A program made the translations under genes and the position numbers. A stretch of DNA of 64,000 nt from Pseudobutyrivibrio ruminis AD2017 (GTDB taxonomy: Bacteria; Bacillota; Clostridia; Lachnospirales; Lachnospiraceae): positions 434,001-498,000 of the forward strand of contig NZ_KE384162.1 of NCBI RefSeq assembly GCF_000424305.1, written 5' to 3'. Numbering within the stretch: the first letter of the stretch is position 1; each line of letters starts with the position of its first letter. Positions 14,874-64,000 of this stretch are shown piece by piece. The notes under the pieces were generated by a model that was not told the DNA's origin, did not search any database, and worked only from the letters and a program-made list of their open reading frames with translations.

Positions 14874-14894
14874 AATCTAAGGTTCCCCAACCTT
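14874..14894 (-). terminator. Probable terminator after gltX
   Basis: Minus strand AAGGTT-GGGG-AACCTT hairpin followed by AGATTTTT, 5 nt past the gltX stop. The stem is only 6 bp, so the call is moderate. Confidence 0.5.
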
Positions 14895-14899
14895 ATATA

Positions 14900-16348: not shown

Positions 16349-16366
16349 TATTTTTCCTCACTAATA

Positions 16367-16409
16367 AATAAATTTAGGACTGCATACTAAATGCAATCCT
16401 AATTTATTC
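16367..16409 (-). terminator. Long A/T-rich hairpin after the DUF4353 gene
   Basis: An imperfect stem pairs AATAAATTAGGATTGCA with TGCAGTCCTAAATTTATT around a short loop on the minus strand, about 40 nt past the stop of the upstream gene and just before gltX. The T tail is interrupted, so it may be a weak terminator or a processing hairpin. Confidence 0.5.
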
Positions 16410-16448
16410 TATACTAATTTCAAATTTTTTCAAGTCTCAGCGAGGGAT

Positions 16449-17702: not shown

Positions 17703-17704
17703 AA

Positions 17705-47236: not shown

Positions 47237-47821
47237 TTATCGCGAGTATTTAGATTTTTTGTTCAATACATATCCTAAAAATGCGCCAACTGCTCCACCT
47301 ACTATATGAGCCATATTAGATATATTATCTGTTACTAGTATTCCCTCTAATACTTGTTGGCCAATATATATGATTGCCACCAAAATAAAAGTAAGAGGGA
47401 TTTCACCATCCCTAAATCCCGTAAATGAAGCTAAAATAATAAATGCAAATACAACTCCACTTGCTCCACAAAGTGCAATTTCAGGAAAGAATATATAGTT
47501 AACTAACCCCGTTACCAACGCAGTAATACCAATTATTTCCGCCAAAGTCTGAGAACCATGTTTCTCTTCCAGCATAGGACCTAGCAACAACAAATATGCC
47601 GCATTATTAATAAAATGCTCCCATCCTCCATGGCCGAAAATATGTGTAAAGAATCTCACATACGTAAATAGATTACTTAATGGAGAATGATATGTCATAA
47701 AATACTTTTCAGTACTCGTTCCCCCGGTCAAATAGCCAATTATAAGAACAACCAAACATATAAGTACAAAGCTCAAAACTACAGGCGCATTATATGTGAT
47801 TCTTAATCTTTTCTTATTCAT
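47237..47821 (-). CDS. Rhomboid family intramembrane serine protease
   Basis: Cleaves transmembrane segments within the membrane. The product has about six membrane helices, the FTHIFGHGGWEHFINN loop, the catalytic Ser in CGASGVVFAFI and the catalytic His in MAHIVGGAVGAFLGY. The ATG at 47821 is used, with GAGG nine bases upstream; the frame extends five codons to a GTG. The gene follows the telA terminator, so it probably heads a separate operon with the membrane-anchored nuclease, which could be a substrate; that link is speculative. Confidence 0.92.
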   Translation of the reverse strand: MNKKRLRITYNAPVVLSFVLICLVVLIIGYLTGGTSTEKYFMTYHSPLSNLFTYVRFFTHIFGHGGWEHFINNAAYLLLLGPMLEEKHGSQTLAEIIGITALVTGLVNYIFFPEIALCGASGVVFAFIILASFTGFRDGEIPLTFILVAIIYIGQQVLEGILVTDNISNMAHIVGGAVGAFLGYVLNKKSKYSR

Positions 47822-47844
47822 CCAACTTATCCTCACATCTCAAT

Positions 47845-47879
47845 AAAAAAGGAGATACCTGCAGATTTCAAGTATCTCC
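47845..47879 (-). terminator. Intrinsic terminator after telA
   Basis: Minus strand GGAGATAC / GTATCTCC (arms 47879-47872 and 47858-47851) followed by TTTTTT. It lies 12 nt past the telA stop and marks the 3' end of the long BREX/helicase transcript. Confidence 0.93.
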
Positions 47880-47890
47880 CAGTGTTTTAG

Positions 47891-49087
47891 TTATCTGCTT
47901 CCTGCTTCTAACAATGCCTGTTTCAACTCATCTTCTATCTTTGCTAACTCTTGCTGCGCTTCTACTCTACGTTTAGAACCTTCCTCATGAATCTTAACCA
48001 CTTCATTTATTGATGTGATTATATCTGAATTAACTTTTCTAATCGTCTCTATATCAACAATTGCACTTTCTGAAGCAATTGCTGCATCAATAGCACCTTG
48101 TTTTAATGTCTCAGCATTACGTCTAAACATTTCATTTGTCATATCAGTGACAGCACTTTGTGCATCTAGAGCTCTTCTAGTATGCTCAATACCAAGCGCT
48201 AATACCATCTGGTTTCTCCAGAGTGGGATTGTATTAATAATATCAGAACGAAGTTTATCAACAACTTCTTGATCTGAATTTTGGAGAAGACGTATCTGTG
48301 GCGCCATTTGAATAGAAACTAATCTTGTAGTCTCCAAATCAAAAATTCTTTTTTCAAAACGCTTACAAGCATCTGTGTAATCTCTGTACATCTGAATATC
48401 AAGCTGATCTTGTGTTAAATCTGCCTTCTGTTGAAGTTCAACAAGCTTTGTAGCTTTAGCCTGTTCTAAAGCTTTTTTCCCAGCAATAATATACATTGTT
48501 AATTCCTTGTAAAACTCAAGGTTCATATTGTACATTTCATCATAAACAAATACATCCTTTGTAAGGACTTGCTGATGACGCTGTAAATCTTTTTCTATCT
48601 TCTTAATATTAGTCTCCGCGCTTTCATAATTAGAGACTAAATAAGTCACTTTATTTTTCCCTTTCTGGAATAGTCCTAATAAACCTTTCTTTTCTGGTGC
48701 AACAGTAGAATTTATTGCAGCTCTTAAATCCCTAAGACTGTCGCCAACCTCTCCAAATTCCTTAGTGCGAACCTTTCCTGTTATTGATGCAGAAAAAGTA
48801 GAAATTCCCTTCTGCGCGTTTGCTCCATAAGAATTAAGAACCTTAACATCACTTATATCAATCTGCTTAACAAACTCCTCAACCTGTTTCTTCTCCTCCG
48901 CTGTTAGCATAGATTCATCTGTTGAACCAGCTGAAAAAGTGTCATTTGAGGCAGGAGTATCAGCTGCACTTAATACAGGCTCAGCAAAACTTGACATCGA
49001 TTCTTCTGGATTTAATGTCAATGGCCTAGCTTTAATTCCACTAATTCCTTGTTCCATTATTTTCTGTTCTTCCTTTAATTCTGACAT
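47891..49087 (-). CDS. telA: TelA/KlaA family protein (toxic anion resistance family)
   Basis: Named for tellurite resistance, but the family is widespread and its cellular role is poorly defined; it often pairs with XpaC. The 398-residue product has a disordered Ser/Pro-rich N-terminal 60 residues and then the long helical TelA core: NYESAETNIKKIEKDLQRHQ, FVYDEMYNMNLEFYKELTMY, TTRLVSIQMAPQIRLLQNSD and LWRNQMVLALGIEHTRRALD. It has no membrane segment. AAGGAGAGG precedes the ATG. It lies 10 nt after the XpaC-like gene and ends the island transcript. No other tellurium-resistance (terC, terD) genes are present, which argues against a simple tellurite function. Confidence 0.92.
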   Translation of the reverse strand: MSELKEEQKIMEQGISGIKARPLTLNPEESMSSFAEPVLSAADTPASNDTFSAGSTDESMLTAEEKKQVEEFVKQIDISDVKVLNSYGANAQKGISTFSASITGKVRTKEFGEVGDSLRDLRAAINSTVAPEKKGLLGLFQKGKNKVTYLVSNYESAETNIKKIEKDLQRHQQVLTKDVFVYDEMYNMNLEFYKELTMYIIAGKKALEQAKATKLVELQQKADLTQDQLDIQMYRDYTDACKRFEKRIFDLETTRLVSIQMAPQIRLLQNSDQEVVDKLRSDIINTIPLWRNQMVLALGIEHTRRALDAQSAVTDMTNEMFRRNAETLKQGAIDAAIASESAIVDIETIRKVNSDIITSINEVVKIHEEGSKRRVEAQQELAKIEDELKQALLEAGSR

Positions 49088-49097
49088 CTTCCTCTCC

Positions 49098-50357
49098 TTA
49101 TTTTATCCTTAAGTCATTATCTACATATCCATCTTGGCTCATAACGGCCTCTAATGCTCTTGCTTCCGCATTTAATTCTATTGTTACGAATTTATAAATC
49201 TCATCTATCTTCTCATTAACAAGCATAATCAATTTTCTTGTAGCTTGCAAAACATTCTCTCTTATACTTGACAGAATATCATCAGAAGGATTTATCACTT
49301 CTAATTCTATCAACTTTAATGTTAATCTTAATGTCTCTGGGGCATAATATTCCTCAAACTGATATATATCAACTTGATAAATATCTTTGTGCTTTTCTAT
49401 AGATTCCAGTAAAACAGGCATTCTCTCAGTTAATATTTTATAATTTTCGCATATCTCACCTGGCTCCAAGAAATCTACTAACATATGGCAAGCTTTAATG
49501 TAATTAGATAAATCTTTCCGTTCAATCAAATCCAAAAATGAGCTCTTATCAAAATCAATTTCTGCCGTTTCAAATTCACCAACCACATCTTCGGAGTCTT
49601 CATCATTCTTCTGTAATTTATTAACATAAATAGGATTTTGAATAATAGACAGATCCACTACAATATGCACTTTACGATTATACTTACGCTGTATATCCTC
49701 CAACGCTAATCTTTCAAGTTCGATTTGTTTCATCCAAGCATCATCTCTAGGTTGTAATGCCTGATATAAATATAAATTTAACAGTAACGCAAAAGTATTA
49801 AATTCTTTAAAAAAATCTTCAACAAACTCAATCCGATCTTCGCCTATATGCTGAAGCAGGTGATAAAAATATCTATTTGTCCAAGTCAAATCAAAACACT
49901 CTGCAAAATGCTTTCTATACACACGATTATTTTCAAGCAAGTCAAAATGCTCCGAAGCAGAAACGACTTCACTAAACTTATATATACGTGATATAAACAC
50001 CTGGAGATGTTTTTCCTTATTTTCAGGTGTGGTATGAAAAGCTCTAATATGTCTATCTGCAACATCAATAGCAAAGTCTTTCCATAGCCTATCAGTATCA
50101 CACATATCTGGAACATTCCCACTAGAAATTATTTTATCATATTTCTGTGAAAGCAATTTGTACTGCCCCATCACACCTTTTAGTAATTCTTGAATATTCT
50201 TTTTTGCCAAATTGCCATCTGAAGGTAATTCTATTAGCCAGTTGTAGATTCTTTCTTGCTGCCTTTTTTTCCACTCTTCTTTCTGCTGTGCTTTTGAATA
50301 TTCTAGAACATCATCGTAATGGTCTTCTTTATTTCCTTGATAATCAATAAAACCCAT
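49098..50357 (-). CDS. XpaC-like protein, probable TelA partner
   Basis: Provisional. The 419-residue product is helical and cytoplasmic. Its N-terminal 280 residues are not recognised and contain a charged start and a KNDEDSEDVVGEFETAEIDF acidic loop. From about residue 320 the pattern resembles the XpaC C-terminal helices: EEYYAPETLRLTLKLIELEV, then IRENVLQATRKLIMLVNEKI, ending in ALEAVMSQDGYVDN like the XpaC tail. XpaC genes commonly sit directly before telA, as here (10-nt gap). The link therefore rests on weak similarity plus position. Spacing to the 620-residue helicase gene upstream is 15 nt, so it belongs to the same transcript. Confidence 0.55.
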   Translation of the reverse strand: MGFIDYQGNKEDHYDDVLEYSKAQQKEEWKKRQQERIYNWLIELPSDGNLAKKNIQELLKGVMGQYKLLSQKYDKIISSGNVPDMCDTDRLWKDFAIDVADRHIRAFHTTPENKEKHLQVFISRIYKFSEVVSASEHFDLLENNRVYRKHFAECFDLTWTNRYFYHLLQHIGEDRIEFVEDFFKEFNTFALLLNLYLYQALQPRDDAWMKQIELERLALEDIQRKYNRKVHIVVDLSIIQNPIYVNKLQKNDEDSEDVVGEFETAEIDFDKSSFLDLIERKDLSNYIKACHMLVDFLEPGEICENYKILTERMPVLLESIEKHKDIYQVDIYQFEEYYAPETLRLTLKLIELEVINPSDDILSSIRENVLQATRKLIMLVNEKIDEIYKFVTIELNAEARALEAVMSQDGYVDNDLRIK

Positions 50358-50372
50358 TATATATGTTTTCCT

Positions 50373-52235
50373 TTATTTTTCACTTTTTGTATACCAACTT
50401 GGCCTATGCTTAGTGGCCAAACCACCTTCTTCTTTGTAAGTCCAGCGAGCACCAAACTTCTTCTTTGTTTCCTGTAAAATAGGGTCGATACTTTTATCAC
50501 CAACTACCCATAATGCACCATTCTTTGGTCTCTTATCTAAAACTTCTAAGCCATTGTTAGCAAGAAACGAAACCAAATCCTCAGCTGTATTTTTTTCAAC
50601 CTTTGCATCCTCACTATTTGTCTTTTTATTAACTGTATTACCAGAATAATCAGTTTGTAATAATGTAGGCCGAGACTTCGTTTCTTTTTCAACACTAGCA
50701 GGCTTTTCTTTCTTTATTTCCACTTTTGGAGTAAAGCAAGGTACAGTAATATTAGGCTTTTCTCCTACCAGCTTATATAAATCTGAATTCATATCTGCAA
50801 TAAATCTAGAACCTTTCCCCCAGAAAGTTAATACCAAATGAAATTTAGCTCTAGTCATAGATACATAGACCAAGTTTCTCATCTGAATCATATATTGCTC
50901 ATAGGATTCTTCATCTTCTGGCTGATAAGCGTAAGGGAAATTTCCTTCCGCAAACATTGGAATAATAACAACATCAAATTCTAAGCCCTTGGCACCATAT
51001 GCAGATGCAATTTTAACTCCTGGTTTTGCCATGGAAAAAGTGGAATCCTTCTTCACCTGCTCATGTTGAATATTTTCTGAAGCAAACCATTCTGCATATA
51101 TTGGAATCTGCTTATTCTTTGCGGCGATTATACCTATAGTAATTCTATCATTTGATTCTTGATACTTTTTTACTAGGTTTACTACATACTTTCTCTCAGC
51201 AGCCGCATCCTCAAGATGAACCAGTTCTGGGATATTCCCCTCACGTTCCGGAATAGCTCTAAGGCTTCTATCATCTTCTGACAAAATAGCATCATTTTTA
51301 GAGCGGACCGATTCTGCTAAGGCATCTATCTGCTTAGTTGTTCTCATAGACTTTGTAAGCTTCTTAGTTGTTGTCTCAATTCCAAGTTGCTTCGCTGTCC
51401 ATTGTTTATTGAAAATTCGCTGATTTGCATCCATGGCAACAATCATATTTTTGTTGTAAAGCATCATAATTGCTGTCATTTGAGCGAGTGACAAATCTTG
51501 CGCTTCATCAATCAAAATATAATCAAACTTCATCCTATCTGGAATAAGCTCAGGATGACGCACAATAAATAAAGTCTGATCTGCCCAATCAGCCTGCTTA
51601 GTTCTCTCAAGATGTTCACAATAACAGGTGAATAGCTGATATGCTGTAACTCTATCATTTGCACTCATGCGTACCTTACCACCACGACCTTTACGTGGAA
51701 TTGTAAGATACAAATCCATATCATCCTTCCAAATATTCATATCCTTCATCCAATCGAATTCTTCAATCCAAAACTCAGGCTCAATTGAATGAAATCTATG
51801 CTTACCATATTTTGTCTGATGTGCACGTATGGCTTTATTAACATTTTCAATTCTTGTTTTCTCTGCATTTCTCCCCCAAGGATACTTTCTCTTAGGTGCA
51901 GCACCACAGACAGTTAAAAGCTCATACAAATCGCTTATATAGGAATTTATAGTATTTACCAGAACTCCATCTTCTGCAGTACCATTTACCTGTAAAAATT
52001 CTCTTGTAGTAGAAACTAACGTATTCTGAAATGTAAAAATAGCGACCTTGTTTTTTGCATCTGGACCATACTTTTCCACTAGTTTTCTTGCAGCTTGCAT
52101 CAAAACTAAGCTTTTGCCTGCCCCTGCATATCCTTTAACCATTAAAGTACGATCACCGCTATACTTTAGACAAGCCTGCTGCTCGTCTGTAAGCTCTATT
52201 TCCTGGTGATAGGCATCATATAATTTCTCTGCCAT
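50373..52235 (-). CDS. SF1 DNA/RNA helicase with extra C-terminal domain
   Basis: UvrD-like SF1 helicase of 620 residues. Motifs: Walker A GYAGAGKS (residues 35-42), Walker B YILIDEAQDLSLAQMTAIMM, motif III VAMDANQRIFNKQWT, motif IV SMRTTKQIDA, motif V ASAYGAKGLEFDVVIIPMF and motif VI RNLVYVSMTRAKFHLVLTF. The last 100 residues form a linker and a small domain (LWVVGDKSIDPILQETKKKF then GARWTYKEEGG and RPSWYTKSEK). This tail is reminiscent of that of the Sel1 protein. AGGAGG precedes the ATG. It lies between a 61-residue acidic protein and the XpaC-like gene in the island operon. It has no nuclease motif. Confidence 0.88.
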   Translation of the reverse strand: MAEKLYDAYHQEIELTDEQQACLKYSGDRTLMVKGYAGAGKSLVLMQAARKLVEKYGPDAKNKVAIFTFQNTLVSTTREFLQVNGTAEDGVLVNTINSYISDLYELLTVCGAAPKRKYPWGRNAEKTRIENVNKAIRAHQTKYGKHRFHSIEPEFWIEEFDWMKDMNIWKDDMDLYLTIPRKGRGGKVRMSANDRVTAYQLFTCYCEHLERTKQADWADQTLFIVRHPELIPDRMKFDYILIDEAQDLSLAQMTAIMMLYNKNMIVAMDANQRIFNKQWTAKQLGIETTTKKLTKSMRTTKQIDALAESVRSKNDAILSEDDRSLRAIPEREGNIPELVHLEDAAAERKYVVNLVKKYQESNDRITIGIIAAKNKQIPIYAEWFASENIQHEQVKKDSTFSMAKPGVKIASAYGAKGLEFDVVIIPMFAEGNFPYAYQPEDEESYEQYMIQMRNLVYVSMTRAKFHLVLTFWGKGSRFIADMNSDLYKLVGEKPNITVPCFTPKVEIKKEKPASVEKETKSRPTLLQTDYSGNTVNKKTNSEDAKVEKNTAEDLVSFLANNGLEVLDKRPKNGALWVVGDKSIDPILQETKKKFGARWTYKEEGGLATKHRPSWYTKSEK

Positions 52236-52266
52236 GCCCAGCCTCCTAACACTAATTATTTATACT

Positions 52267-52452
52267 CTAAATATCATCCTCTAAATCTAAATCAGCAAGA
52301 ATATCATCAACTTCATCTAAATCAATATCTGAAAATGCTGTTGATGGGTCAATTAACTCTATTCCTGCCCCCTCAATTTCAGGAATAGAAATACCATCAT
52401 CATCAGTACTCCAGTTATCAGCAATCTTCTGCCAAAAATTTTTATTAATCAT
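52267..52452 (-). CDS. Small acidic protein between AddB-like and SF1 helicase genes
   Basis: Not recognised. With the ATG at 52452 the product is 61 residues: a basic, Trp-containing start (MINKNFWQKIADNWS) and then a strongly acidic Asp/Glu/Leu/Ile tail (DIDLDEVDDILADLDLEDDI). The tail could mimic DNA or bind the basic face of a helicase; this is inference. AGGAGA lies six bases before the ATG, and the first eight bases overlap the end of the AddB-like gene, just as that gene overlaps its upstream neighbour. A longer frame to 52503 has no ribosome site. Confidence 0.72.
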   Translation of the reverse strand: MINKNFWQKIADNWSTDDDGISIPEIEGAGIELIDPSTAFSDIDLDEVDDILADLDLEDDI

Positions 52453-55096
52453 AATAGTTCTCCTGGTCCACCTCGTAGATTGCATTACGGCAATAACTAA
52501 CATGCGGACAAAAACTACAAGCTAATTGAACAGGATCAAAATCGCCAATCATTTCCTCAGGAGAAGCCTTAAGCTTTTCATACAAATCAAGACCAGTACG
52601 TCCGTCAGGAGTAACTAGTTTTCCAAATCTATTTTTTGTAGCTTCCCTAACAAAGTGATTAGGATAATGGATTTTTATTCGTTCATCTGTATAATACTTT
52701 CCTCCACATTGAGTTCGATTACCATAATCAAAATCATTTTCACCATTATCGTAGGAAATGTAATCATATACTTGACGTTTTTCACTCTTTCGTAAGGTGG
52801 GAAACAGTTCCATCACATTACGATACACCTCATCAACCTTCATTCCCTGTTCCTTCATAAGGTTATAAATTGCAGAAATCAAGGCATTCAAGGCATAACT
52901 TTGTTGGAAATCAGAGTCATAGGTTGGATACTTTTCCAAAACATAACTTATGGTATATTTCATAGGACATAAAGCATAAGCCATTCTCGCTTCCTTAATG
53001 ATTCCTCTTGGAGCCTTGTCCCTATCGTATTTTTCTATTTTTCCTTTTCCTTCTGGAGTCTGCCATACTCTATTGAAAGTAATAGAATCTCTTGTTGAAG
53101 GTTCAATTTCTATTCCAGTAGCTTTAGCTATAAGTTTAAGATATGGAGATGGTGCCAATAACTTCTCGCTCATCTCACTAATCCAAGATAAGCATACAGA
53201 CTTATTCTTTAATGCGGCATACATAAAGTAGCGATTACATAAAACTGTAGCATCCATAATCTGAATCATGTTTGATATCAACGGATTCTTTGTTTTTTCG
53301 TAACATTCTAGAATCTTACCCTTTGTCAAAGGCCAGATATAATCCTTATTTCCACCTGGGATTGTGTTTATATCACACATACAGATATGTGCTTTACTAT
53401 AATTCTTTACAGCTTCAGCCTCTACGAAAAACAATGGTCTAACAAAACCTACTCTACTTGTTTCAATCTCACTATCATCAAATCTTCCACAAATAAATAA
53501 ATCTAATGCTCTCGCTATATCAACAGGAGAACACTCCGCTATATAACTGTTAGACTGATTTAGTTTCTCGAAAATATCTTGGACAATAACTCGTTCTTCT
53601 TCATAAAGCTCGTTAGAGATTTCGCTTCTTTTTAGTATGTTATTGAGTTTACCAAGATGTTCATTAACTTTAATATTTCCATTATTTCCAAACAGCTCCT
53701 TAGCCATATCAAGCAACTGATTAATAAGTGCCAATATAACATCAAGCTTTTCTGGCTCAACTGAAAACATTCCAAAATTATCAAAAGGATTCGCTATTGC
53801 TTCCTGCCATCTTGAAATAGCTGGATCTACATCAAGTTCAACATTAAACGGCTCTAATACTTCGGTTCTTATTTCCTTTAATCTGCCAATTCTTTGCTCC
53901 CACTGTTCAATCGTGTTGCAGTCTCTAAAAAATGGTATAAGGTGCAATAAATCTTGCATATACTGCTTACCTGACACGCCATTGACTGATAACCAACCTG
54001 AAGCAAAACAATCGATAAGACTATCTGTGTCTAGGGATATCGTTTGTTGTTCCTCATCCCACATTTTGTTTAAGGAACTAATAAATTGTCCGATTGGATA
54101 GGCAAGAATCTTTCTTTCTCCATATTCATCTGGGAAATAATCCTTCAACATTTCATTTACATCGCGCTGATTTGCAGCGTACATTGTAAAATCCTCAGAT
54201 TTAATGCGCTTGACATCATCTACAAATTCCATGACAGTTGCGTATTCTTTTATCTCAAGATTATTTTCTATTGAAACCTGTTCCTCTCCTTCAAACAACA
54301 AGCCATAGGCATCGTACTCGTCAGATTTTTCAATCTTCCACTGTGATTTAGGAACATAACCATTTTCCTCAGAATAATACTTGTCCCAAATTTCATAGGC
54401 AAACGGGAAGCGTTCGTCGTAAGGTATAAAGTAAATCAGCTCATAACCGGCCTTTTCCATAAGTCTCATTACATGCTCCTGAATAGGAGTAATATAATAG
54501 AATCCATGAAAAACAATTGCTGTAGCTTCTGATAATCCACCAATATTAAATGCCTGCAAGAATACTTTTTCCCATTCATCTTTGGAAGTCATTTTAGCCA
54601 TTTGTTTTTTATAGTTACTAATTGAAGAATCTCTCTTTTCCAGATATTTCCAGGCCTCAATTAATAGTTGTAAATTTCTGTCGCCTTCACCATTCAGTTG
54701 CTCTGGTTCAATTTCTGCTTCTACAAGCAAATTAATAGCAGACAGTAACGAATCAATATTTCTACTACAGCCCGTAAGCCAATTTAATTCTTTCTCGTCT
54801 TTAGCCGCATTTGTTTTATTTCTTAAAAACTCCGATAAAACAATTGTCTCATTAAACTTAGCTTGGTCGCTTGTCCATAATCTATTAATACCTGTAGTAA
54901 TGTTTCTAAATTCAGTTATATTTAATTTGCCACTGTAGGAAATAACTTCGTCTTTTCTTTCAATACCAACCGAACCAATAAATCCTTTTCTTAAATCAGC
55001 AGAAACAGTGATGATTGGATATTTCGCCAATTCTTCAAAATAAGGATTATCCGTTATCTTAGTTAAATCAGTATAGGTATAAACTCTTCTACTCAT
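52445..55096 (-). CDS. AddB-like protein with Fe-S cysteines and no visible nuclease motif
   Basis: Relative of the AddB/RexB subunit of helicase-nuclease complexes. With the ATG at 55096, supported by AGGTG six bases upstream, it is 883 residues. It lacks Walker motifs, as the inactive helicase half may. The C-terminal region has the Fe-S pattern of AddB: Cys710 in CPMKYTISYVLEKYP and CSFCPHVSYC (Cys860, Cys863, Cys869), i.e. C...CxxCx5C. The usual nuclease motifs between them (GxxDRxD and D-Y-K) were not found. It overlaps the AddA-like gene by 8 nt, so the two products are made together and probably form a complex. Confidence 0.8.
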   Translation of the reverse strand: MSRRVYTYTDLTKITDNPYFEELAKYPIITVSADLRKGFIGSVGIERKDEVISYSGKLNITEFRNITTGINRLWTSDQAKFNETIVLSEFLRNKTNAAKDEKELNWLTGCSRNIDSLLSAINLLVEAEIEPEQLNGEGDRNLQLLIEAWKYLEKRDSSISNYKKQMAKMTSKDEWEKVFLQAFNIGGLSEATAIVFHGFYYITPIQEHVMRLMEKAGYELIYFIPYDERFPFAYEIWDKYYSEENGYVPKSQWKIEKSDEYDAYGLLFEGEEQVSIENNLEIKEYATVMEFVDDVKRIKSEDFTMYAANQRDVNEMLKDYFPDEYGERKILAYPIGQFISSLNKMWDEEQQTISLDTDSLIDCFASGWLSVNGVSGKQYMQDLLHLIPFFRDCNTIEQWEQRIGRLKEIRTEVLEPFNVELDVDPAISRWQEAIANPFDNFGMFSVEPEKLDVILALINQLLDMAKELFGNNGNIKVNEHLGKLNNILKRSEISNELYEEERVIVQDIFEKLNQSNSYIAECSPVDIARALDLFICGRFDDSEIETSRVGFVRPLFFVEAEAVKNYSKAHICMCDINTIPGGNKDYIWPLTKGKILECYEKTKNPLISNMIQIMDATVLCNRYFMYAALKNKSVCLSWISEMSEKLLAPSPYLKLIAKATGIEIEPSTRDSITFNRVWQTPEGKGKIEKYDRDKAPRGIIKEARMAYALCPMKYTISYVLEKYPTYDSDFQQSYALNALISAIYNLMKEQGMKVDEVYRNVMELFPTLRKSEKRQVYDYISYDNGENDFDYGNRTQCGGKYYTDERIKIHYPNHFVREATKNRFGKLVTPDGRTGLDLYEKLKASPEEMIGDFDPVQLACSFCPHVSYCRNAIYEVDQENYYD

Positions 55097-57566
55097 AATC
55101 AACACCTACTTCAGCCAACAACGAACCCCACGAAGGATTCGAATGTTTTTTAGGAATAAAGCAAATAAAATGATTTATCGCTCTAGTCATTGCAACATAC
55201 AAAATTCTAGTTTCTTCCTGAAGAACTGCTAAATCTTCTTTTTTTCTCATTTCATCATAATAGCTACTCTGCATTTCTTCATAGAAATATCTTTTGCCTT
55301 TTCCTTTCTTGTCTCCGTTATAAGCCCAAGAAACCTTTTTTCTTAATGGATCAACCAATATTTCTGTTCCAGTATTTATGATTAAACCACGTTTTGTATA
55401 AGGAACAAATACAGTGTCAAATTCCAAACCTTTCGCCTTGTGTACAGTCATTATTAACACTGATGTATAATCATCAACTGACTGAACCTCAGCTTCACTT
55501 TCAGAACGATTTGTTGCAACATTAAGCTTCAAGAAATTGTAGACATCGTAGATACTAACTTTTTCTCCACCTAGATTCCTTTGAATGATTTCCATAAGCT
55601 TTTCAAGATTTGCTTGATATTGTCTTGCTTCAGCAAAAGTTTGAGCATTACATCGTTTCTCTTCCCATCCCTGCTCTGTAAGAATAGCTTTTCTGTTAAT
55701 GATATAGTTATCAATAACCGAAACATCATCAAGAATTTCCTTAAAAACAGAAAGCACAGGCTTTAATCTCATATCCTTATGGTATTGCTTCCAATTAGTT
55801 TGGTCGAGGAAATGGTTTAAGTAATCTACCAAATTATCATAATCACCATGAAGCATCTCCATAGCATTAACATCCATTGAATCAATGTCACCAGCATATG
55901 GTGTTAATAAATAATTGAAAATATGTTTTGGCTCATCAGGAAACATAAACGATGTAACCAGAATATAAAAATCTCTAACGGCCTCACTTGCAAAGAAACT
56001 TCCATCTTCTCTCACTGAAGCGGGAATCTTATTACGTCGCAAGAGCGATGCACACATTGATACTTCTTTATGAGTTCTAGTAAGCAAAACAACTCTTGTT
56101 TTCTCTGACTTAGGAACCTCTTTATCCTCTACACGACGTTCCAAATCATTTAATCTTTGACTTACTAAGTCGGCAAACTTATTTCTAAAATCGTCCGTCT
56201 CATCATCAACCAAAAGCATTTTACAAATGCCTGCCTTTTGATTGAAAGGTATTACAGCCTTATCATATTGTAAATATCCTTCTTTTCCCCAAGCTCTAAA
56301 GTATTGATCCATCTTGCGCAAAACAGATGCCGAGGTACGGTAGTTATTCACTAGTTCAAAGTTTACTGCATCCTTTATCTTATTCTCGAACATATATCTT
56401 CGAAGAATATCAAAAGCCTGCTCGTTAGCTCCTCTAAATCGATAAATACTTTGTTTAACATCGCCCACGACAAACAGCGTTGCACCTAGTAGTTTTACTA
56501 AATAACATGCAACCATGATCTGTGATAAGTCAGAATCCTGGAACTCATCAATAAACAAATATTTCATAGAAATATCTGGACTTGGAAGATATTCTGACTT
56601 GAGTACTTCTTGAAGGTCACGCATAATATCATCTAAACCAACACCTTCATTTTTTCTTTTTATATCAAAATATTCATCATCCAATTTCGGTATAATTTCC
56701 GTAACTGCCTTATGAAAAGCAGCAGAGGCTTTGTCCGCTGGCGTTCCCCAATCCATATGCTCCATATCCGAATGAGAAACTCCTAACTGTAGAAATCTAG
56801 ACCAATACTGTGTTAATAACCCATTTGCTCTATAAAATGGTATTCCTAATTGTCCTTTGATAGACATTGTGTCATCCAATTTTCCATCAAGAGCATTTTT
56901 TATTATCTCAGCTTTTTCATACTTGTAGCTGCGAATGTTAAGATTTTTTGTAAATCCCTCACCAATTCCATATTCCCTGAGCATCTGATACGCGAAGCTA
57001 TGAATTGTAGATATGTTCATTTGAGATTGTTCTTCTAACCAACGCAAATAAATCTCTTTACGCGTCAATTCGTAACGAGCTACCAACGCATCCTGAAGTC
57101 TCTTGTTCATCTGATTAGTGGCATCATTAGTAAACGTAATCATATAGATTTCAGGCAAATGCAACCCAGGCTGTGTATGCATCAAATAAAGAATTCGATC
57201 TATCATTACAGTAGTCTTGCCTGTTCCAGCAGATGCCTGAACAACAATATGCTCATCAGCTTTGCAATGTTCAACAAGATACTGTGCAGAATTAAATAAT
57301 GGACATTGCGGCTCCAAATATTTTTCTACGAAATTTTCTTCATCATCGCCATCAATTATTATCTTCTTTTCTGGAAAAGGCACAGAATATGCCTGAAACA
57401 AAAAAATATCTGCATAAGCCTTATGACTAGCTTTTATTGCTTTAACTTTTTCAGAATCCTGTGTAAACCAAATCACCTTTATGCCAGATTCCAACCATTT
57501 CTTAATTTTTTCTTCATACTCTGCATAAGATTGATTGCAGAGCAATATGGAATATAAAGGTTCCAT
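55089..57566 (-). CDS. AddA-like UvrD helicase without nuclease domain
   Basis: SF1A helicase of 825 residues. An N-terminal region of about 85 residues of unknown fold precedes the Q motif. Then come Walker A ASAGTGKTT (111-119), motif II LFIDEFQDSDLSQIMVACYL, motif III GDVKQSIYRFRGANEQAFDI, NYRTS, motif V TVHKAKGLEFDTVFVPYT and motif VI TRILYVAMTRAINHFICF. The protein ends soon after motif VI, about 400 residues shorter than AddA, so the usual C-terminal nuclease is missing. GGAGG precedes the ATG. It lies 25 nt after the PC4-like gene and overlaps the AddB-like gene by 8 nt. Confidence 0.88.
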   Translation of the reverse strand: MEPLYSILLCNQSYAEYEEKIKKWLESGIKVIWFTQDSEKVKAIKASHKAYADIFLFQAYSVPFPEKKIIIDGDDEENFVEKYLEPQCPLFNSAQYLVEHCKADEHIVVQASAGTGKTTVMIDRILYLMHTQPGLHLPEIYMITFTNDATNQMNKRLQDALVARYELTRKEIYLRWLEEQSQMNISTIHSFAYQMLREYGIGEGFTKNLNIRSYKYEKAEIIKNALDGKLDDTMSIKGQLGIPFYRANGLLTQYWSRFLQLGVSHSDMEHMDWGTPADKASAAFHKAVTEIIPKLDDEYFDIKRKNEGVGLDDIMRDLQEVLKSEYLPSPDISMKYLFIDEFQDSDLSQIMVACYLVKLLGATLFVVGDVKQSIYRFRGANEQAFDILRRYMFENKIKDAVNFELVNNYRTSASVLRKMDQYFRAWGKEGYLQYDKAVIPFNQKAGICKMLLVDDETDDFRNKFADLVSQRLNDLERRVEDKEVPKSEKTRVVLLTRTHKEVSMCASLLRRNKIPASVREDGSFFASEAVRDFYILVTSFMFPDEPKHIFNYLLTPYAGDIDSMDVNAMEMLHGDYDNLVDYLNHFLDQTNWKQYHKDMRLKPVLSVFKEILDDVSVIDNYIINRKAILTEQGWEEKRCNAQTFAEARQYQANLEKLMEIIQRNLGGEKVSIYDVYNFLKLNVATNRSESEAEVQSVDDYTSVLIMTVHKAKGLEFDTVFVPYTKRGLIINTGTEILVDPLRKKVSWAYNGDKKGKGKRYFYEEMQSSYYDEMRKKEDLAVLQEETRILYVAMTRAINHFICFIPKKHSNPSWGSLLAEVGVDYE

Positions 57567-57591
57567 ATTGTTATACCTCCAAATATGAGAA

Positions 57592-57807
57592 TTAAAGAGT
57601 ATCTAATAAGCCGTATAAAGCTTGTATTTCTTCATCACTTAAAGTTATTCCCTTGCCCATTTTCTCATGTCCAGGTGCCCAATCGCGAATATCATACTTT
57701 GCCTCACGTCCATTCCAAGAAACCTTATTAAGCTCTTTTCTCCAGCCATTACTTCCTTCAGATAAAACACCAATTTCTTCTACAATCTCATAATTAAAAT
57801 CTGCCAT
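57592..57807 (-). CDS. YdbC/PC4-like single-stranded DNA-binding protein
   Basis: The 71-residue product matches the YdbC family, a PC4-like fold known to bind single-stranded nucleic acid. Key segments are FNYEIVEEIGVLSEGSNGWR, KELNKVSWNGREAKYDIRDW and the tail HEKMGKGITLSDEEIQALYG. AAGGAGG precedes the ATG. It is 3 nt after the BrxA-position gene and 25 nt before the AddA-like helicase. A ssDNA-binding partner for the helicases, or a substrate sensor, is inferred from the family and position. Confidence 0.85.
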   Translation of the reverse strand: MADFNYEIVEEIGVLSEGSNGWRKELNKVSWNGREAKYDIRDWAPGHEKMGKGITLSDEEIQALYGLLDTL

Positions 57808-57810
57808 TTA

Positions 57811-58521
57811 TTAAGCCTCCTTCAAACTAACAGTGGCTTCTCCACCAAAATTACTGAAAATAAAGCTATCGTCTTCCATCAAACTTGTCTTATCTACCAT
57901 ATAATTAAACGGGAAGAATAAAGCTGCATTGTTTAAGCTACCTACAGTATGATATGCTGAATCAGAAATGCTCATCATCGTATGCATCATAAAGCAAATT
58001 ACCTTAGCATTTTTCACTTCAAATTTGTGCACATGATATTTTCCTGGCTTATCACAGGTAAGCACTCCTAAAGCCTTAAGTGTTGCAACGAGCTTATCAA
58101 TAGAATGAAATAAAGTAGTACGCTCACCCCATTCATCAAAGATTTTTTGCTTAAGCTGTGCTAAAGTAATCTCATCCTGAAACTCTGACATTTTACCAAT
58201 AAGTCTACATACATCACCAAAAACAGGATATGCAGCCAAAAGCAAGCACCAATGTATCTCTAAAGTATAATCTGGATAATTCTTATAGAGCTTCTTCGCT
58301 TCTGCAAAAAGCTCTTTAGAATATTCATTCTCATAGATCCAGATATTCATCAAAATTTCTCTGGTCTTTCTAAGATTTGTTGGGCTACCTATCTCAAATC
58401 CCAGATACTCATTCAACTGATTTTTAACTTCATCTTCAGTTAAATCCTCGATTGCAAGCTCAGCCACTTTATTCAACCAAGGCTCTTTTAAATTTCTTGA
58501 TAAACCGACCATTTTAGCCAT
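57811..58521 (-). CDS. brxA: BrxA-like BREX protein (by position)
   Basis: BrxA (DUF1819) is a small DNA-binding BREX subunit encoded after pglZ in type 3 loci. The 236-residue product is cytoplasmic and helical, with patterns like REILMNIWIYENEYSKELFA and YPDYTLEIHWCLLLAAYPVF. A winged-helix-like region lies in the middle (TLAQLKQKIFDEWGERTTLF, then KLVATLKALGVLTCDKPGKY). These suit the family, but the match was judged by eye. The gene overlaps pglZ by 8 nt, and the order methylase-helicase-pglZ-this is that of type 3 BREX. Confidence 0.62.
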   Translation of the reverse strand: MAKMVGLSRNLKEPWLNKVAELAIEDLTEDEVKNQLNEYLGFEIGSPTNLRKTREILMNIWIYENEYSKELFAEAKKLYKNYPDYTLEIHWCLLLAAYPVFGDVCRLIGKMSEFQDEITLAQLKQKIFDEWGERTTLFHSIDKLVATLKALGVLTCDKPGKYHVHKFEVKNAKVICFMMHTMMSISDSAYHTVGSLNNAALFFPFNYMVDKTSLMEDDSFIFSNFGGEATVSLKEA

Positions 58522-59971
58522 TATTTTCTACCGCCTTTATTTTTATAAATGGAACTACCACTTCATCTAGAGTAATTCCTCCATGAGTCAGGACTTTTTC
58601 TCCTTTAGTATCAAAAGAAACGCCTGTTTCACAAATCATATAATCAAATTCCTTTGGAAGATAATACTTAGGATACTCAATAAGATTATCTTTCCCTTTT
58701 AAAGAATCTTTTACAGCAAAATCTTTCAATACCAGCATTCTTTTACTCTTAGTTTCTAACTCAACGCCAGCACCGGTAATTTTTCCAATACCTGTACAAG
58801 CTGTATCTCCATGATCTGCAGAAATATAAATATCAAAGCCAGCTTTAAGCATTCGTCTAACAAGATTCACTAGCTTTTTGCTCTCAGAAAGGAGCTTCAT
58901 GTCCTGATACATGCCTTTTTTCCCCTGTTTCTGAGCATGCAGCATTTCATCACAATCAAGAATAATAACAGCTCCACATTTTACGAAACTTGAAAACTCT
59001 GCATCATAGCCGCGCTCATATCCTATCTCTGTTTCTGTATAACCAAGATTTCTTGCTGCTTCTACAAATTCTTTCTTTTCGTTAGCTTGTTTCCAAGGAT
59101 CAATCAATTGGCTTGGAAGTTTTCCACTCAACAAACACTGTCTTGATACGGAAGTTGTTGTCGGAATCATAGCCATTGTTGATGCCTTCTGATACTTTAA
59201 ATCTGTAAATGATTCCGAGATTATATTCCAGTCAAATTCAGACATTCCATCCATTACAACGAGAACAAATCTCTCACTGTTTTCATGCATATATTCCAAG
59301 GTTCCACTGACCAAAGTAGGTGCATTCTTTCCTATTTTAGAAGAAAGCTTTCCATATTCCTTAAGAATATATTCTTTAAACTGTTCATTTAATTCAGAGG
59401 TATCCTTTCCTAATCCAAACCTACTACAAAGTACATCTATTTCAGCTTTCTGGTCCGCAATATAAAGCCAATCTTCATAATCAGGATTATCCGAAACTAC
59501 TCGTTGAATCTCACTCCAAAGATGATCTATATAAGCTTTTATATTCTCTTCTGAATATACTTTATTATCAAAAAACTCCTGTACTTCTTTATCATTTAAA
59601 TTCTTCACAAAACTACTAGTATAAGCATTGATGATAAGATTTAAATCTCTTTCTCTTCCAGGTATTTCTCCATATATACTTGGAAAAAGTTTACTCATAC
59701 TAATTTGATAAGAAGTCATTCTACGCAGAAGGTCATAGGGAATATACTGGTTACTTTCCGCAAAAACAGCTATCTTATTACCTTCAGCTTTGATTTCAGA
59801 TTCATGCTCTACACGAAATTCCAGATCATTTTTATATTCAACAGCCTTATGACCTCTTTGCTCAAACTCATCCGCAATATTATATTTTTCTCTTAGTTTT
59901 TCATCATCTACAACAAGAACCTTGTCGGCATAGGTCGCAGGTGACTCATCCACTATATACTTCTCTATCAT
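58514..59971 (-). CDS. pglZ: PglZ, alkaline phosphatase-superfamily BREX protein
   Basis: PglZ is the hallmark BREX protein, with an alkaline-phosphatase-like fold; its exact activity in defence is not settled. The 485-residue product has the metal-site Asp in VLVVMDGMSEFDW (Asp241), the TTTSVSRQCLLSG nucleophile-type segment (272-284), IYISADHGDTACTG (Asp386, His387) and HGGITLDEVVVPFIKI (His463). The start overlaps the helicase stop by one base with GGAGG upstream. It is shorter than many PglZ proteins because the N-terminal part is compact. Flanking genes support type 3 BREX. Confidence 0.92.
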   Translation of the reverse strand: MIEKYIVDESPATYADKVLVVDDEKLREKYNIADEFEQRGHKAVEYKNDLEFRVEHESEIKAEGNKIAVFAESNQYIPYDLLRRMTSYQISMSKLFPSIYGEIPGRERDLNLIINAYTSSFVKNLNDKEVQEFFDNKVYSEENIKAYIDHLWSEIQRVVSDNPDYEDWLYIADQKAEIDVLCSRFGLGKDTSELNEQFKEYILKEYGKLSSKIGKNAPTLVSGTLEYMHENSERFVLVVMDGMSEFDWNIISESFTDLKYQKASTMAMIPTTTSVSRQCLLSGKLPSQLIDPWKQANEKKEFVEAARNLGYTETEIGYERGYDAEFSSFVKCGAVIILDCDEMLHAQKQGKKGMYQDMKLLSESKKLVNLVRRMLKAGFDIYISADHGDTACTGIGKITGAGVELETKSKRMLVLKDFAVKDSLKGKDNLIEYPKYYLPKEFDYMICETGVSFDTKGEKVLTHGGITLDEVVVPFIKIKAVENNG

Positions 59972-62643
59972 TAAGCCTCCAGCTTCGCCAACAGAATCAG
60001 CTTTAATTCAGGATAGATTACCTTTTCACGCTTAAATTCTGATTCCATCACGTTCTTTTCTTCTTCCAGCTTCTTCAATCTTGCATTCTTAATATTGTCT
60101 ATACCAATGCTTTCAGCAGCTTCTTTTCTTAGATTCCAAGCATGCTCAAACTTGTTATGACTCTCCTTCACTTTGCCAACATACTTATCCCTTATTTCTA
60201 CAAAGGTATCATAAGCATAGGTTGTGGTAATCTCACAAAGCTTTTCATATTGGTCATCCGATAATGGTAAAGATTCCTGGCAACTAATCTTTGAGTTTGC
60301 ATCTAAAAATACATCCATTATCCTTTTTCCAGCTATAGGCCGTAATACAAAATCGCTGTTTACAAATACCGGCAGAATTTTTACAGCACTTTCATCCTCC
60401 GCAACTGAGAGACTCCACAACATAAAATAACCAGCCTCATTAGGAAAGTTCTCAATTGATACACTTAGTAATTTGTCATTTTTTGCCTGTAAGTACTCTC
60501 CATTTAGCATTTCCTTAAACTGAGGATTTTGAACGCTCATATCGCTTAACAACTGAACTTCTCTGCCATTCCAATGCTGATAATAGGTATACATCATTCT
60601 CAGTGCGTCATTGATATCGAAATTAGATTCTATCCCCACCAATTCTGATAAATTCTTCTCCTCACAGAGAACATCCCTATAACTCTTAACATTCTTCATC
60701 TGGTCCTTCATTTCCATTGTTACAGAGCTCAGATTCTTTTCAATATTGTATGGCTTCTCAATTGACTTGATATACACGTCTGTAAAATCATATTCAGCTA
60801 CTTCGCTATCAAGGACATCAGAATATTTATCTATTCCCATTTCCTCTAGAATTACAGAAAGCTTTTCTTCAATAACCTCACGCACACGTTTTTCTACAGT
60901 CCCCTCAAGGATAAAATTGTAAATATGAACATCCTTTTCCTGACCAATACGATCCACACGTCCACATCTCTGTTCAACACGCATAGGATTCCAAGGCATA
61001 TCATAATTGATTAGAATGTTAGCAAACTGCAGGTTCAAACCTTCTCCACCGGCATCTGTAGAAATAAAAACATCTGAGTCTTCTTTAAACTCACGTATAG
61101 CTTCATTTCTTTCATCAATGCTCATGCTACCATTCAGTGTAGAAACTCTATATCCTTGCTTTTCAAGGTACTCCTTAATATATCTAACTGTTTCAACAAA
61201 CTCCGTAAAGATGATTACCTTTTGGTCTGTATCCTCACTTCTAAGGCTATCAATCAGTTCTACCAGCTTCTCAACCTTAACATCCGGATACTGAAACATA
61301 GCCTGTCTTGCTGTAGCAATTATCTTTTGTAATTCCTCTATTTCTTCTGAAGAATTCACAGAAAGAGCCTCTAAAGCATCCTCAACGTTATCTTCAATGT
61401 TAATCTCATCCAACTCTTCCAAGGATAAATTACTTGCCTTAGTTTCTTGATTCAAAAGCACATCAAGTCTTCGTTTAAGACTTTCCTGAATAGCAGCTGT
61501 ACTACTTGTGACCATTCTCTGCATGATAATCAGTAGAAAAATAAGGCACATATTCTTCTTTCTATTTTTAACAGCTTTACCATAGGTCTTTGATACATAC
61601 TCACTAACCTGTTCATAAAGCTCTTTCTGTAAAGAATGGCGCTCATCCCATTCCAAGGAAACTAGATGAGTTATTCTGTTCTTGAATAACTTTTCACCCT
61701 GATTATCAATCGCATCTCTCTTTTCTGTTCTTATCAGGAAAGGTTCAACCTGTTCTCTCACTACAGAATCAGCATTAGGAAATGCATCTCTTTCCAGTAA
61801 TCTAATCAAGCGTAAAAACGGTTCAGTCTTTCCATTATGAGGTGTTGCCGATAAAAGGAGTAAATACGGACTTGCTTCTGACAATAGTTGTCCAAGCTTA
61901 TATCTCGCCACTTCACTTGATGAACCAGCAATCTTATGAGCCTCATCAATGATAATCAAATCCCATCCACTATTAATAATTGAATAGATACGCTCCTGAT
62001 TGTAGGCTTCAACTTTCTCATCACTCCATCCGGCATGACGTTCTATTGGTTTTATAGAATCCATTGGTGATATTACATAATCAAAGGTTCCGTATACATC
62101 CTTTGAATTTGTTAGCCTACGAATAATGTCATAGTCAGAAGGCAAAATAACCTGAAAATGCTCATGAAACTTTTCACGCATTTCTATAGACCACTGAGTA
62201 ACAAGACCTGTAGGACATACCACCAATACTCGTTTTACTAGACCACGAGCTTTCAACTCTTCTATTATCATTCCGGCTTCAATAGTCTTACCAAGACCTA
62301 CTTCATCGGCCAAAATATAACGTACCTGATTTGTACGAAGTGCCTTTTTTAAAGCATGAAGCTGATGCGGCAATGGAATAATTCCACTAGAAATAGGAGT
62401 TAGTAATCCATCTGACATCTCATTCTTAATTTTTGAAAGCGTTGTTATAAAACGGAGATAGTTTTCATCACATCTACTGTTGTCAGAATCTGCAACTAAT
62501 CTGTCTTCGCAAACCTTATATACAGTGCCAGATGCTGCATCAAATACCTTGTAAGAAATGTATCCCCAAAGGTCAATGCATTCTAGAACCATCACATTTT
62601 GTCCGTTTTCCTTGTCATACGCATAACTGCCTATTTCTAGCAT
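59971..62643 (-). CDS. brxHII: SNF2-family helicase (BrxHII-like)
   Basis: SF2 SNF2-type DNA translocase or helicase of 890 residues. It has the motifs: LADEVGLGKTIEAGM (Walker A, 111-125), LIIIDEAHKIAG (DEAH), LSATPHNGKTEPF, and the C-terminal half with FTEFVETVRYIKEYL, STDAGGEGLNLQFANILINY and QRCGRVDRIGQEKDVHIYNF. A C-terminal region of about 250 residues is less conserved. It lies 23 nt after the methylase gene and overlaps pglZ by one base. Order and neighbours match BrxHII of type 3 BREX; similarity to other SNF2 defence helicases (e.g. DISARM DrmD) is expected. Confidence 0.85.
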   Translation of the reverse strand: MLEIGSYAYDKENGQNVMVLECIDLWGYISYKVFDAASGTVYKVCEDRLVADSDNSRCDENYLRFITTLSKIKNEMSDGLLTPISSGIIPLPHQLHALKKALRTNQVRYILADEVGLGKTIEAGMIIEELKARGLVKRVLVVCPTGLVTQWSIEMREKFHEHFQVILPSDYDIIRRLTNSKDVYGTFDYVISPMDSIKPIERHAGWSDEKVEAYNQERIYSIINSGWDLIIIDEAHKIAGSSSEVARYKLGQLLSEASPYLLLLSATPHNGKTEPFLRLIRLLERDAFPNADSVVREQVEPFLIRTEKRDAIDNQGEKLFKNRITHLVSLEWDERHSLQKELYEQVSEYVSKTYGKAVKNRKKNMCLIFLLIIMQRMVTSSTAAIQESLKRRLDVLLNQETKASNLSLEELDEINIEDNVEDALEALSVNSSEEIEELQKIIATARQAMFQYPDVKVEKLVELIDSLRSEDTDQKVIIFTEFVETVRYIKEYLEKQGYRVSTLNGSMSIDERNEAIREFKEDSDVFISTDAGGEGLNLQFANILINYDMPWNPMRVEQRCGRVDRIGQEKDVHIYNFILEGTVEKRVREVIEEKLSVILEEMGIDKYSDVLDSEVAEYDFTDVYIKSIEKPYNIEKNLSSVTMEMKDQMKNVKSYRDVLCEEKNLSELVGIESNFDINDALRMMYTYYQHWNGREVQLLSDMSVQNPQFKEMLNGEYLQAKNDKLLSVSIENFPNEAGYFMLWSLSVAEDESAVKILPVFVNSDFVLRPIAGKRIMDVFLDANSKISCQESLPLSDDQYEKLCEITTTYAYDTFVEIRDKYVGKVKESHNKFEHAWNLRKEAAESIGIDNIKNARLKKLEEEKNVMESEFKREKVIYPELKLILLAKLEA

Positions 62644-62666
62644 ATATTCACCATACCTAACTAAAA

Positions 62667-64000
62667 TTAAATTCGACTCAAGCTTATGTCATAGTACATA
62701 AGCAAATTCTGATCTTCCTGGATTGTTGTGTCTGGAAGACGTTGAGCCATATCTACAATAGCCTGATAGTTTTTGTCCTTCCACAACATAGAAAAGCCTG
62801 CTCTAATTGCTTCTGATCTAAATAGTTTTAGCTTTCCTTTTGTTTGCATATATCCCTCAAACTCTTTTATAAGCTTTTTCTCACGAAGCTTAGAAAGGTC
62901 ACCTTCTTTTGTTATATCAGGTATATACCACTTTCCAGAATCATCTTGTAAAAAATTCTCCTCAAGTAATTCTGCCAATTCAGGTATTGCTTCGTATTTA
63001 TCCACAGATTTTACTTCTCTCATAAACTTAGGCTGAATATCTGCGTAAGCTTGTGGCTCATTTAATTGTTGATACAGCCATCCTATTGCAGTTTTTTCAT
63101 TTGTTACAACAAACGATAATTGCACTGGTTCAACATCCATTTTTATTCTTGCTGTATCATATTCATTAACCTGATCCGCTAAAAAATACATTGAATCACG
63201 TTCAATAAAATGTTCTCCAAGCCCAACATAGAACTCATGCGCATCCATAGGAATTGGAATTCCTTTCATAATGTGATAAGCCACCATTCTATCAAAGAGA
63301 AGATACGCTTGTCGCTCATCAATAATATCAATCTTCCCATTGCCGTCTGAATCGACTATTACAGGTAAATTTGCTAAATGCTGCCGTACAAATGACCACG
63401 CAGTCTCTTCGGTACCAGCATCTAACAATAAGTTGTCTGTAAAGCTCTTCTTTGGTTTATAAGCAGATATAACCAAATCCTGTTTAACTGCACCTTGACT
63501 CATTAACTGTTTGTAACTACTTTGCTGCTTATTTAATGTTCGCACATCCGCAATTACAAATCCTGCTCTCTGAATAGCTTCCTGAATTGCATTCCAAACG
63601 GAGTTTTTAGAATTATGGAACTCAATAGTTATCCATCTGTTTGGTTTTAATACTCTAAAGAATTCAGAAAAACACTTTGTCATAAGGTTTTGATATTCAG
63701 GCAATCCCTTATTCTGAGCGGCATTTATAATGGCTTCTTTGTCTTGATTAGTCATTACCTTAAGCCATGACTCCCATACATAGCTAAGCTCCGAATAATT
63801 TAAATTGCTACCAAATGGAGGATCTGTGAATATATAATCCACTGAGTTATCTGGAATAGGCAACTGCGTTGCACTACCGCATGAAATAATAGTCCCTGAA
63901 CCATTATCTCTTAATGCAAAATCCTTAAACTTTCGAATTGCAGCATCAAAAATATTGTTTTCCTGGTATAAAGATGGAATATATAAAGTTCCAGATAAAG
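62667..64000 (-). CDS. pglXI: DPPF-motif DNA methylase, PglXI-like (5' end beyond window)
   Basis: Adenine- or cytosine-amino DNA methylase. The frame is open to the right edge without a start, so only the C-terminal ~445 residues are seen. Motif IV DPPF lies in IPDNSVDYIFTDPPFGSNLN, followed by YSELSYVWESWLKVM as in the DUF1156-type PglXI methylases of type 3 BREX. VLKPNRWITIEFHNSK lies about 60 residues later. The C-terminal 250 residues (target recognition or DUF region) are not recognised. It is the first gene of the visible BREX-like run; brxC and brxF would be expected further right. Confidence 0.8.
   Translation of the reverse strand, partial: LSGTLYIPSLYQENNIFDAAIRKFKDFALRDNGSGTIISCGSATQLPIPDNSVDYIFTDPPFGSNLNYSELSYVWESWLKVMTNQDKEAIINAAQNKGLPEYQNLMTKCFSEFFRVLKPNRWITIEFHNSKNSVWNAIQEAIQRAGFVIADVRTLNKQQSSYKQLMSQGAVKQDLVISAYKPKKSFTDNLLLDAGTEETAWSFVRQHLANLPVIVDSDGNGKIDIIDERQAYLLFDRMVAYHIMKGIPIPMDAHEFYVGLGEHFIERDSMYFLADQVNEYDTARIKMDVEPVQLSFVVTNEKTAIGWLYQQLNEPQAYADIQPKFMREVKSVDKYEAIPELAELLEENFLQDDSGKWYIPDITKEGDLSKLREKKLIKEFEGYMQTKGKLKLFRSEAIRAGFSMLWKDKNYQAIVDMAQRLPDTTIQEDQNLLMYYDISLSRI

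Follow-up and report, generated by a model that had tools for sequence, protein, structure and literature searches.

A putative AddAB-type back-end behind exchangeable antiphage cassettes in Pseudobutyrivibrio ruminis AD2017 and related bacteria

We analyzed a 64,000-nucleotide stretch of Pseudobutyrivibrio ruminis AD2017 (G000:C1:434001-498000), hereafter the window, which carries a minus-strand operon whose 5' genes lie beyond the window's right end. In this operon, a type 3 bacteriophage exclusion (BREX) system is followed by genes for a PC4-like protein, an AddA-like and an AddB-like protein, a 61-amino-acid (aa) peptide, a superfamily 1 (SF1) helicase, a helical protein in the XpaC position and TelA. 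Comparison with related loci gave a roughly even chance that the operon is a defense cassette in an exchangeable slot ahead of a conserved, portable AddAB-type back-end. More tentatively, the module may be a general defense back-end, in which a nuclease-less AddAB motor, an adaptor peptide with an FW-W pattern (FW-W peptide) and often a partner helicase would serve about ten antiphage systems via one exchangeable slot; we hold this broader proposal to be possible and somewhat short of probable. The core of the back-end is the AddA-like protein, the AddB-like protein and the FW-W peptide, while the SF1 helicase, the XpaC-position protein, TelA and PC4 are variable.

Three pairs of loci, designated by our genome (G) and locus (L) handles, showed cassette exchange at the DNA level. 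The window and G726 were 83.7% similar over 326 bp across the promoter and gene of a helix-turn-helix (HTH) protein, and this homology ended within the HTH gene. Their cassettes, BREX type 3 in the window and SNF2-HKD with type III restriction-modification (R-M) in G726, had no similarity. Similarity returned exactly at the PC4 start codon and continued in six blocks (71-77%) through a gene for an EndA-like nuclease; the outer flanks, as far as they were read, had none. G724 and G722 were 96.1% identical over 8617 bp of the left flank, with another 398 bp at 98.5% farther out, and 90.4% identical over 10923 bp of the right flank, counted from the DprA start. Between these flanks lay 21.1 and 21.9 kb, respectively, of unrelated DNA, with the HTH gene inside the exchanged part. 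This arrangement of unrelated cargo between conserved flanks is that of a defense hotspot. In the third pair, L030 and L031, the left flank was 98.2% similar over 2547 bp and 95.9% over 387 bp. A type III-A cassette of clustered regularly interspaced short palindromic repeats (CRISPR) in L030 faced a defense island system associated with restriction-modification (DISARM) in L031, followed by 75-85% identity from AddA to XpaC, 96.1% in TelA and 92.3% in EndA. In all three pairs, the right-hand exchange boundary fell on a start codon, that of PC4, DprA or AddA. No exact direct repeats of at least 11 bp were found within 250 bp of the two boundaries in any of the six loci, and no search was aimed at integrase families.

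A tree built from AddA and AddB (1644 columns) placed the same three pairs, and G728 with G765, in splits with a support of 100 each. The members of each of these four pairs differ in their front-end, that is, the cassette upstream of the module; G728 has none. Weaker pairings were G274 with L033 (support 38) and L028 with G368 (support 75).

We surveyed the distribution of the module with the AddB-like protein or its alignment as the query, in genome sets that were drawn samples and overlapped. Matches were found in 9 of 392 genomes of the order (3 close and 6 distant), 14 of 397 of the family (2 close and 12 distant) and 7 of 79 of the genus of G274 (8 places). The species-level genome collection gave 8 loci, and two plasmid records and one weak phage record were also matched; no relatives were found in viral contigs. 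After de-duplication, the close family comprised 14 loci in 13 genomes, G720b being a divergent second copy in G720, and loci met twice were counted once (L026=G724, L027=G722, L028=G627, L029=G368, L032=G274). Outside the 14 remained 15 genomes of a sister family (6 from the order and 12 from the family, 3 shared), G1154 with a distant pair without clear context, the phage record and the plasmids of Geobacillus and Exiguobacterium. The hosts of the close family were Lachnospiraceae including Butyrivibrio, Brotaphodocola (Lachnospiraceae), a metagenome-assembled genome of Lachnospiraceae and Eubacterium ruminantium (Eubacteriaceae in NCBI).

AddA and AddB were adjacent in 14 of 14 loci. The FW-W peptide was present, free or fused, in 13: as a separate gene in 7 (and on the Geobacillus plasmid) and as the N-terminus of the XpaC-position protein in 6. 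Among the variable parts, the second SF1 helicase and the XpaC-position protein were each found in 8 loci and PC4 in 3. TelA lay close downstream in 7 of 14, and in G368 it was located 13 kb upstream of AddA. The full seven-gene set was confined to the window and G726 (2/14). Thus, of the linkage in relatives that the first-pass annotation had proposed to examine, the AddA-AddB pairing (14/14) and the position behind a defense cassette (12/14) held, and the seven genes as a set did not. In two Butyrivibrio loci, G724 and G722, AddA follows a DprA gene, and the AddA-like protein is extended at its N-terminus by more than 200 aa (L026:5810-9996 and L027:5810-9996, DprA plus AddA); by eye we take this extension to be a ComF-type phosphoribosyltransferase. 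A 170-aa protein (L026:15657-16169) follows the SF1 gene in four loci of Butyrivibrio type, G724, G722, G728 and G765; in G720a, a related protein is encoded in front of the BREX-1-type cassette.

Known or candidate defense genes were located upstream of the module on the same strand in 12 of the 14 loci, and 0-2 unclassified or small genes separated the named defense gene from the first back-end gene. The front-end is BREX type 3 in the window and SNF2-HKD with type III Mod (5.1e-203) and Res (3.5e-293) in G726. G724 has a BREX-1-type cassette, classed from BrxC, PglX, PglZ and BrxL, together with Gabija; in G720a, the same class was assigned from PglX (in two reading frames), PglZ and BrxL, with PDC-S19 and an MkoA-like protein. 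G722 carries two type III Mod genes with Res-like, DrmD-like, TmtA-like and PDC-S68 genes, and G720b a PbeA-like helicase with type II restriction genes. Druantia in G765 was called from the single protein DruE (1928 bits), DISARM in L031 from DrmA and DrmB, and CRISPR III-A in L030 from Cas10/Csm1, Cas1 and Csm6. SNF2-HKD in G274, a type IV restriction endonuclease (REase) in L033 and AbiLi/AbiLii (AbiL/RloB) in L028 complete the series.

Several observations weigh against a portable back-end with an exchangeable slot. No defense gene was found upstream in 2 of the 14 loci, G728 (a GH43-type gene 529 nt away) and G368 (opposite-strand genes), nor on the Geobacillus plasmid. Because defense genes cluster in any case, neighborhood by itself, here an uncontrolled count, is no proof of joint action. 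Wide gaps interrupt some of the runs, namely 162 nt before SF1 in G274, 148 and 181 nt inside the stretch of genes ahead of AddA in G720b and 67-73 nt in G765, G720a and L033. The HTH gene heads the operon in 4 of 14 loci (the window, G726, G724 and G722) and was not found in the DNA searched around the other ten. The AddA-to-XpaC part of L030 and L031 is less alike than TelA and EndA, so the AddAB part may have traveled with the cassette. The AddB-like family is also scarce in the phylum sample, with matches in 2 of 398 genomes (its own and one weak distant match). Finally, one distant relative, on a plasmid, carries the annotation of a PD-(D/E)XK nuclease protein, and thus nuclease loss may not be general.

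These points bear on the best-surviving alternative, in which AddA-AddB is a stand-alone defense system that shares the promoter of whatever cassette arrives upstream, the slot being an ordinary defense hotspot. It would readily account for the bare copies in G728, in G368 and on the Geobacillus zalihae plasmid NZ_CP129218.1 (L105), where AddA-AddB-74 aa-SF1 (11212-18185) stands by itself, preceded by genes for DNA polymerase IV and YolD. The genus of the window has a variable region at this locus, which also fits. So does the sister family (L020-L025, L062-L070), in which the order AddA, AddB, SNF2 (DpdE-like), DEAD (DpdF-like), a protein of ~260 aa and one of ~1000 aa looks complete by itself; this order varied little across 15 loci, an HTH or WYL gene often preceded it, and one of the 15 stretches ends inside the SNF2 gene. 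However, a stand-alone system does not readily explain the same-strand tail position behind defense genes in 12 of 14 loci or exchange boundaries at start codons in three of three pairs, and we consider it rather unlikely.

Under the favored reading of a cassette in an exchangeable slot ahead of an AddAB-type back-end, we infer the substrate, the sequence of events and any added protection. The front-end would leave DNA ends, nicks or stalled forks on invading DNA. The nuclease-less AddAB-type motor would load on these and then unwind the DNA, and the single strands would pass to PC4 (or to DprA in the two Butyrivibrio) and to front-end or host nucleases. If damaged or halted DNA were the sole input needed, the back-end could serve unrelated front-ends. 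Under the broader and less probable proposal of a general defense back-end, one machine could complete the work of whatever front-end marks, cuts or stalls foreign DNA. Defense systems have mostly been studied singly. If one constant unwinding module does serve them, sensors as different as those of BREX, DISARM, Druantia, R-M, CRISPR III and AbiL would converge on a common DNA substrate, and the still debated way in which BREX blocks phage DNA could be approached directly. A search rule also follows, in that genes upstream of AddA-AddB in the close family are good candidates for unknown defense systems.

The same proteins could instead protect the host by repairing chromosomal breaks made by restriction-like front-ends. 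AddAB, DprA and single-stranded DNA-binding proteins all function in repair and recombination, which is the attraction of this idea. Yet a nuclease domain was not found in the AddA-like protein, conserved nuclease residues were not seen in the AddB-like protein, and bacteria of this group are expected to have their own AddAB. In addition, DNA cutting is not known to be the main activity of AbiL and Csm6, and host repair therefore appears improbable. Least probable is that the back-end stands in for host AddAB, as a decoy or replacement, to withstand or detect phage inhibitors of AddAB and to set off a membrane response via TelA and the membrane nuclease. The AddB fold without conserved nuclease residues agrees with this, as does the presence of TelA and EndA-like genes close to the module in five loci (the window, G726, G274, L030 and L031), but no TelA turned up in the sequence read around G724, G722, G728, G765, G720a and G720b.

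It had been proposed from the window that the seven genes form a joint or add-on function of BREX. The operon is indeed continuous with BREX type 3 in the window, but BREX core genes lie upstream in just 3 of the 14 close-family loci. We also examined other type 3 loci, found in four genomes of the order with a BrxC match. Two of them were readable at the 3' end, G011 for ~12 kb past BrxA and G229 for ~3 kb until its contig stops, and both lacked the module; contig breaks truncate G074 and G157. We therefore rejected the module as an invariant component of BREX type 3: BREX of any type accompanies it in 3/14 loci, and it occurs in 0/2 other type 3 loci that were readable. We likewise rejected the idea that TelA belongs to the resident chromosomal genes of the window's genus; it was present in 6 of 29 genomes (its own included), and the other five copies were 46-47% identical.

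The operon of the window runs in the order HTH, BrxF, BrxC, two PglXI, BrxHII, PglZ, BrxA, PC4, AddA-like, AddB-like, 61-aa peptide, SF1 helicase, XpaC-position protein and TelA, all on the minus strand. The genes lie where the first-pass annotation had placed them and are closely packed, with re-measured distances from HTH to TelA of -8 to +31 nt (the spacing upstream of AddB-like was measured with its open reading frame begun at ATG). The single strong terminator described there was recovered as an intrinsic terminator at 47850-47880 (minus strand), a 12-bp stem followed by TTTTTATTGA. The stem has an energy of -18.3 kcal/mol (z -3.39), and 1 of 200 shuffles was equally good. A scan of both strands gave 8 terminator-like sites against 8.1 expected; this count is at chance level, so the terminator is argued from the one stem and not from the number of sites. 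From the spacing and the terminator, a single transcript from HTH to the terminator is plausible; the layout part of the earlier shared-transcript claim stands, judged from the genes.

By model and domain matches, the predicted front-end of the window is a complete BREX type 3 set. At the head of the operon, beyond the window, are an HTH_26 protein (small Cro/C1-type, 77 aa, domain match), BrxF (142 aa; NF033453, 66.1 bits, cut-off 50) and BrxC/DUF6079 (1227 aa; DUF6079 1519.9 bits, PADLOC BrxC 1321.7 bits). BrxC and BrxF had been named as the genes to look for on this side, and both are present upstream in the operon. They are followed by two tandem PglXI methyltransferases, the first of 836 aa (L004:4180-6690, beyond the window) and the second of 832 aa (62667-64000 in the window, full gene L004:1667-4165; PADLOC PglXI 1158 bits, DPPF motif). 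The suggested type 3 order of methylase, SNF2 helicase, PglZ and BrxA was borne out by PADLOC and NCBIfam. After PglXI come BrxHII (59971-62643, 890 aa; PADLOC BrxHI/BrxHII model 6.4e-297), PglZ (58514-59971, 485 aa; PADLOC 1.8e-65) and BrxA (57811-58521, 236 aa; PADLOC 1.4e-49). The NCBIfam score of PglZ (NF033449, BREX_PglZ_3) was barely over the threshold, 252.2 bits against a cut-off of 250. The PglXI copies share 497 of 808 aligned residues and DPPF. Their identity was 63-72% in the first 120 columns, 20-21% at columns 301-420 and 60-100% from column 481 on. Columns 301-420 may hold the target region, and this BREX may recognize two motifs.

Among the back-end labels given earlier, PC4 and TelA were supported by Pfam, AddA-like by profile and AddB-like by predicted fold only, and XpaC-like had no Pfam match. 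The PC4/YdbC-like protein (57592-57807, 71 aa) matched PF02229 (3.3e-12) and YdbC structures (best 1.1e-26). The AddA-like SF1 helicase (55089-57566, 825 aa; PF00580 2.3e-43, AddA structure by profile 1.2e-35) retains Walker A and DEFQD, the predicted helicase motor motifs. It stops after the helicase part, and the Pfam search gave no nuclease domain match. The AddB-like protein (52445-55105, 886 aa) has no Walker A. A sequence search against the PDB found no match for it and NCBIfam none above cut-off, and its identity comes from the fold search, in which the top five matches were all AddAB B chains (best 1.1e-14; template modeling (TM) score on the query 0.46-0.48). The model has a mean predicted local distance difference test (pLDDT) of 70.4 and a predicted TM score (pTM) of 0.61, and its C-terminal part is poor. 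Cysteines C713, C863, C866 and C872, which we take to be iron-sulfur (Fe-S) cluster ligands, are invariant in 18 of 18 aligned sequences. In this alignment, none of the invariant columns after C713 was acidic or Lys, which is weaker evidence in this poorly modeled region. The AddAB-type pair is probably nuclease-less.

The 61-aa peptide (52267-52452) overlaps the AddB stop by 8 nt; it has an M-[IV]-x3-FW-x6-W-type start and an acidic end. It is possible that the FW-W peptide is an adaptor of the AddAB-like pair. The second SF1 helicase (50373-52235, 620 aa; PF13361 2.7e-16, PF00580 8.5e-15) retains Walker A and DEAQD. The XpaC-position protein (49098-50357, 419 aa) gave a helical model of low confidence (mean pLDDT 60.5), and its C-terminal ~150 aa are common to shorter homologues; we presumed the XpaC-like label from the gene's place beside TelA. 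TelA (47891-49087, 398 aa) matched PF05816 (4.7e-102).

Beyond the terminator, also on the minus strand, are a 199-aa protein, rhomboid-like by eye (47237-47836), with a homologue at the same position in G726, and an EndA-like DNA-entry-type nuclease (46411-47235), which matched Spd1 and DNA-entry nuclease structures and has an N-terminal hydrophobic segment by eye. Homologues of the nuclease occur near TelA in G726, G274 (L018), L030 and L031. The variable region of the genus (G000:C1:476900-520900) spans ~44 kb here; in G362, the genes that flank it lie ~71 kb apart. These flanking genes are present in relatives, but the filled G362 interval is no clean empty site.

Among the open-licence PubMed Central (PMC) papers that our searches brought up, none described a shared DNA-unwinding tail in its title or abstract opening, which does not prove its absence. 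The operon of the window resembles BREX type 3 in having BrxF, BrxC, PglXI, BrxHII, PglZ and BrxA in the usual order, and adds a second PglXI with a different middle (presumed target) region and the seven-gene tail. Auxiliary effectors likewise add genes to BREX operons. Many, such as PARIS, Gabija and type IV REases, are described in a 2026 survey of BREX neighborhoods (PMC12839542), and TelA, PC4, AddAB, UvrD and XpaC have 0 occurrences in its main text. That survey describes the effectors with BREX and BREX-related systems, whereas the module sits behind many system types. The module resembles the AddAB helicase-nuclease in the AddA-like/AddB-like pairing, the AddB fold and the four Fe-S-type cysteines. 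It differs in the AddA-like protein, which stops at the end of the helicase part, in the AddB-like protein, where conserved nuclease residues were not seen, and in being encoded in defense operons. The closest parallels in arrangement, one constant component beside many unrelated defense systems, are BrxR (WYL) (PMC9122601) and CapK/CapS (PMC13373217), which are described as regulators common to diverse immune operons. Unlike these regulators, the constant part here is a multi-gene DNA-unwinding tail.

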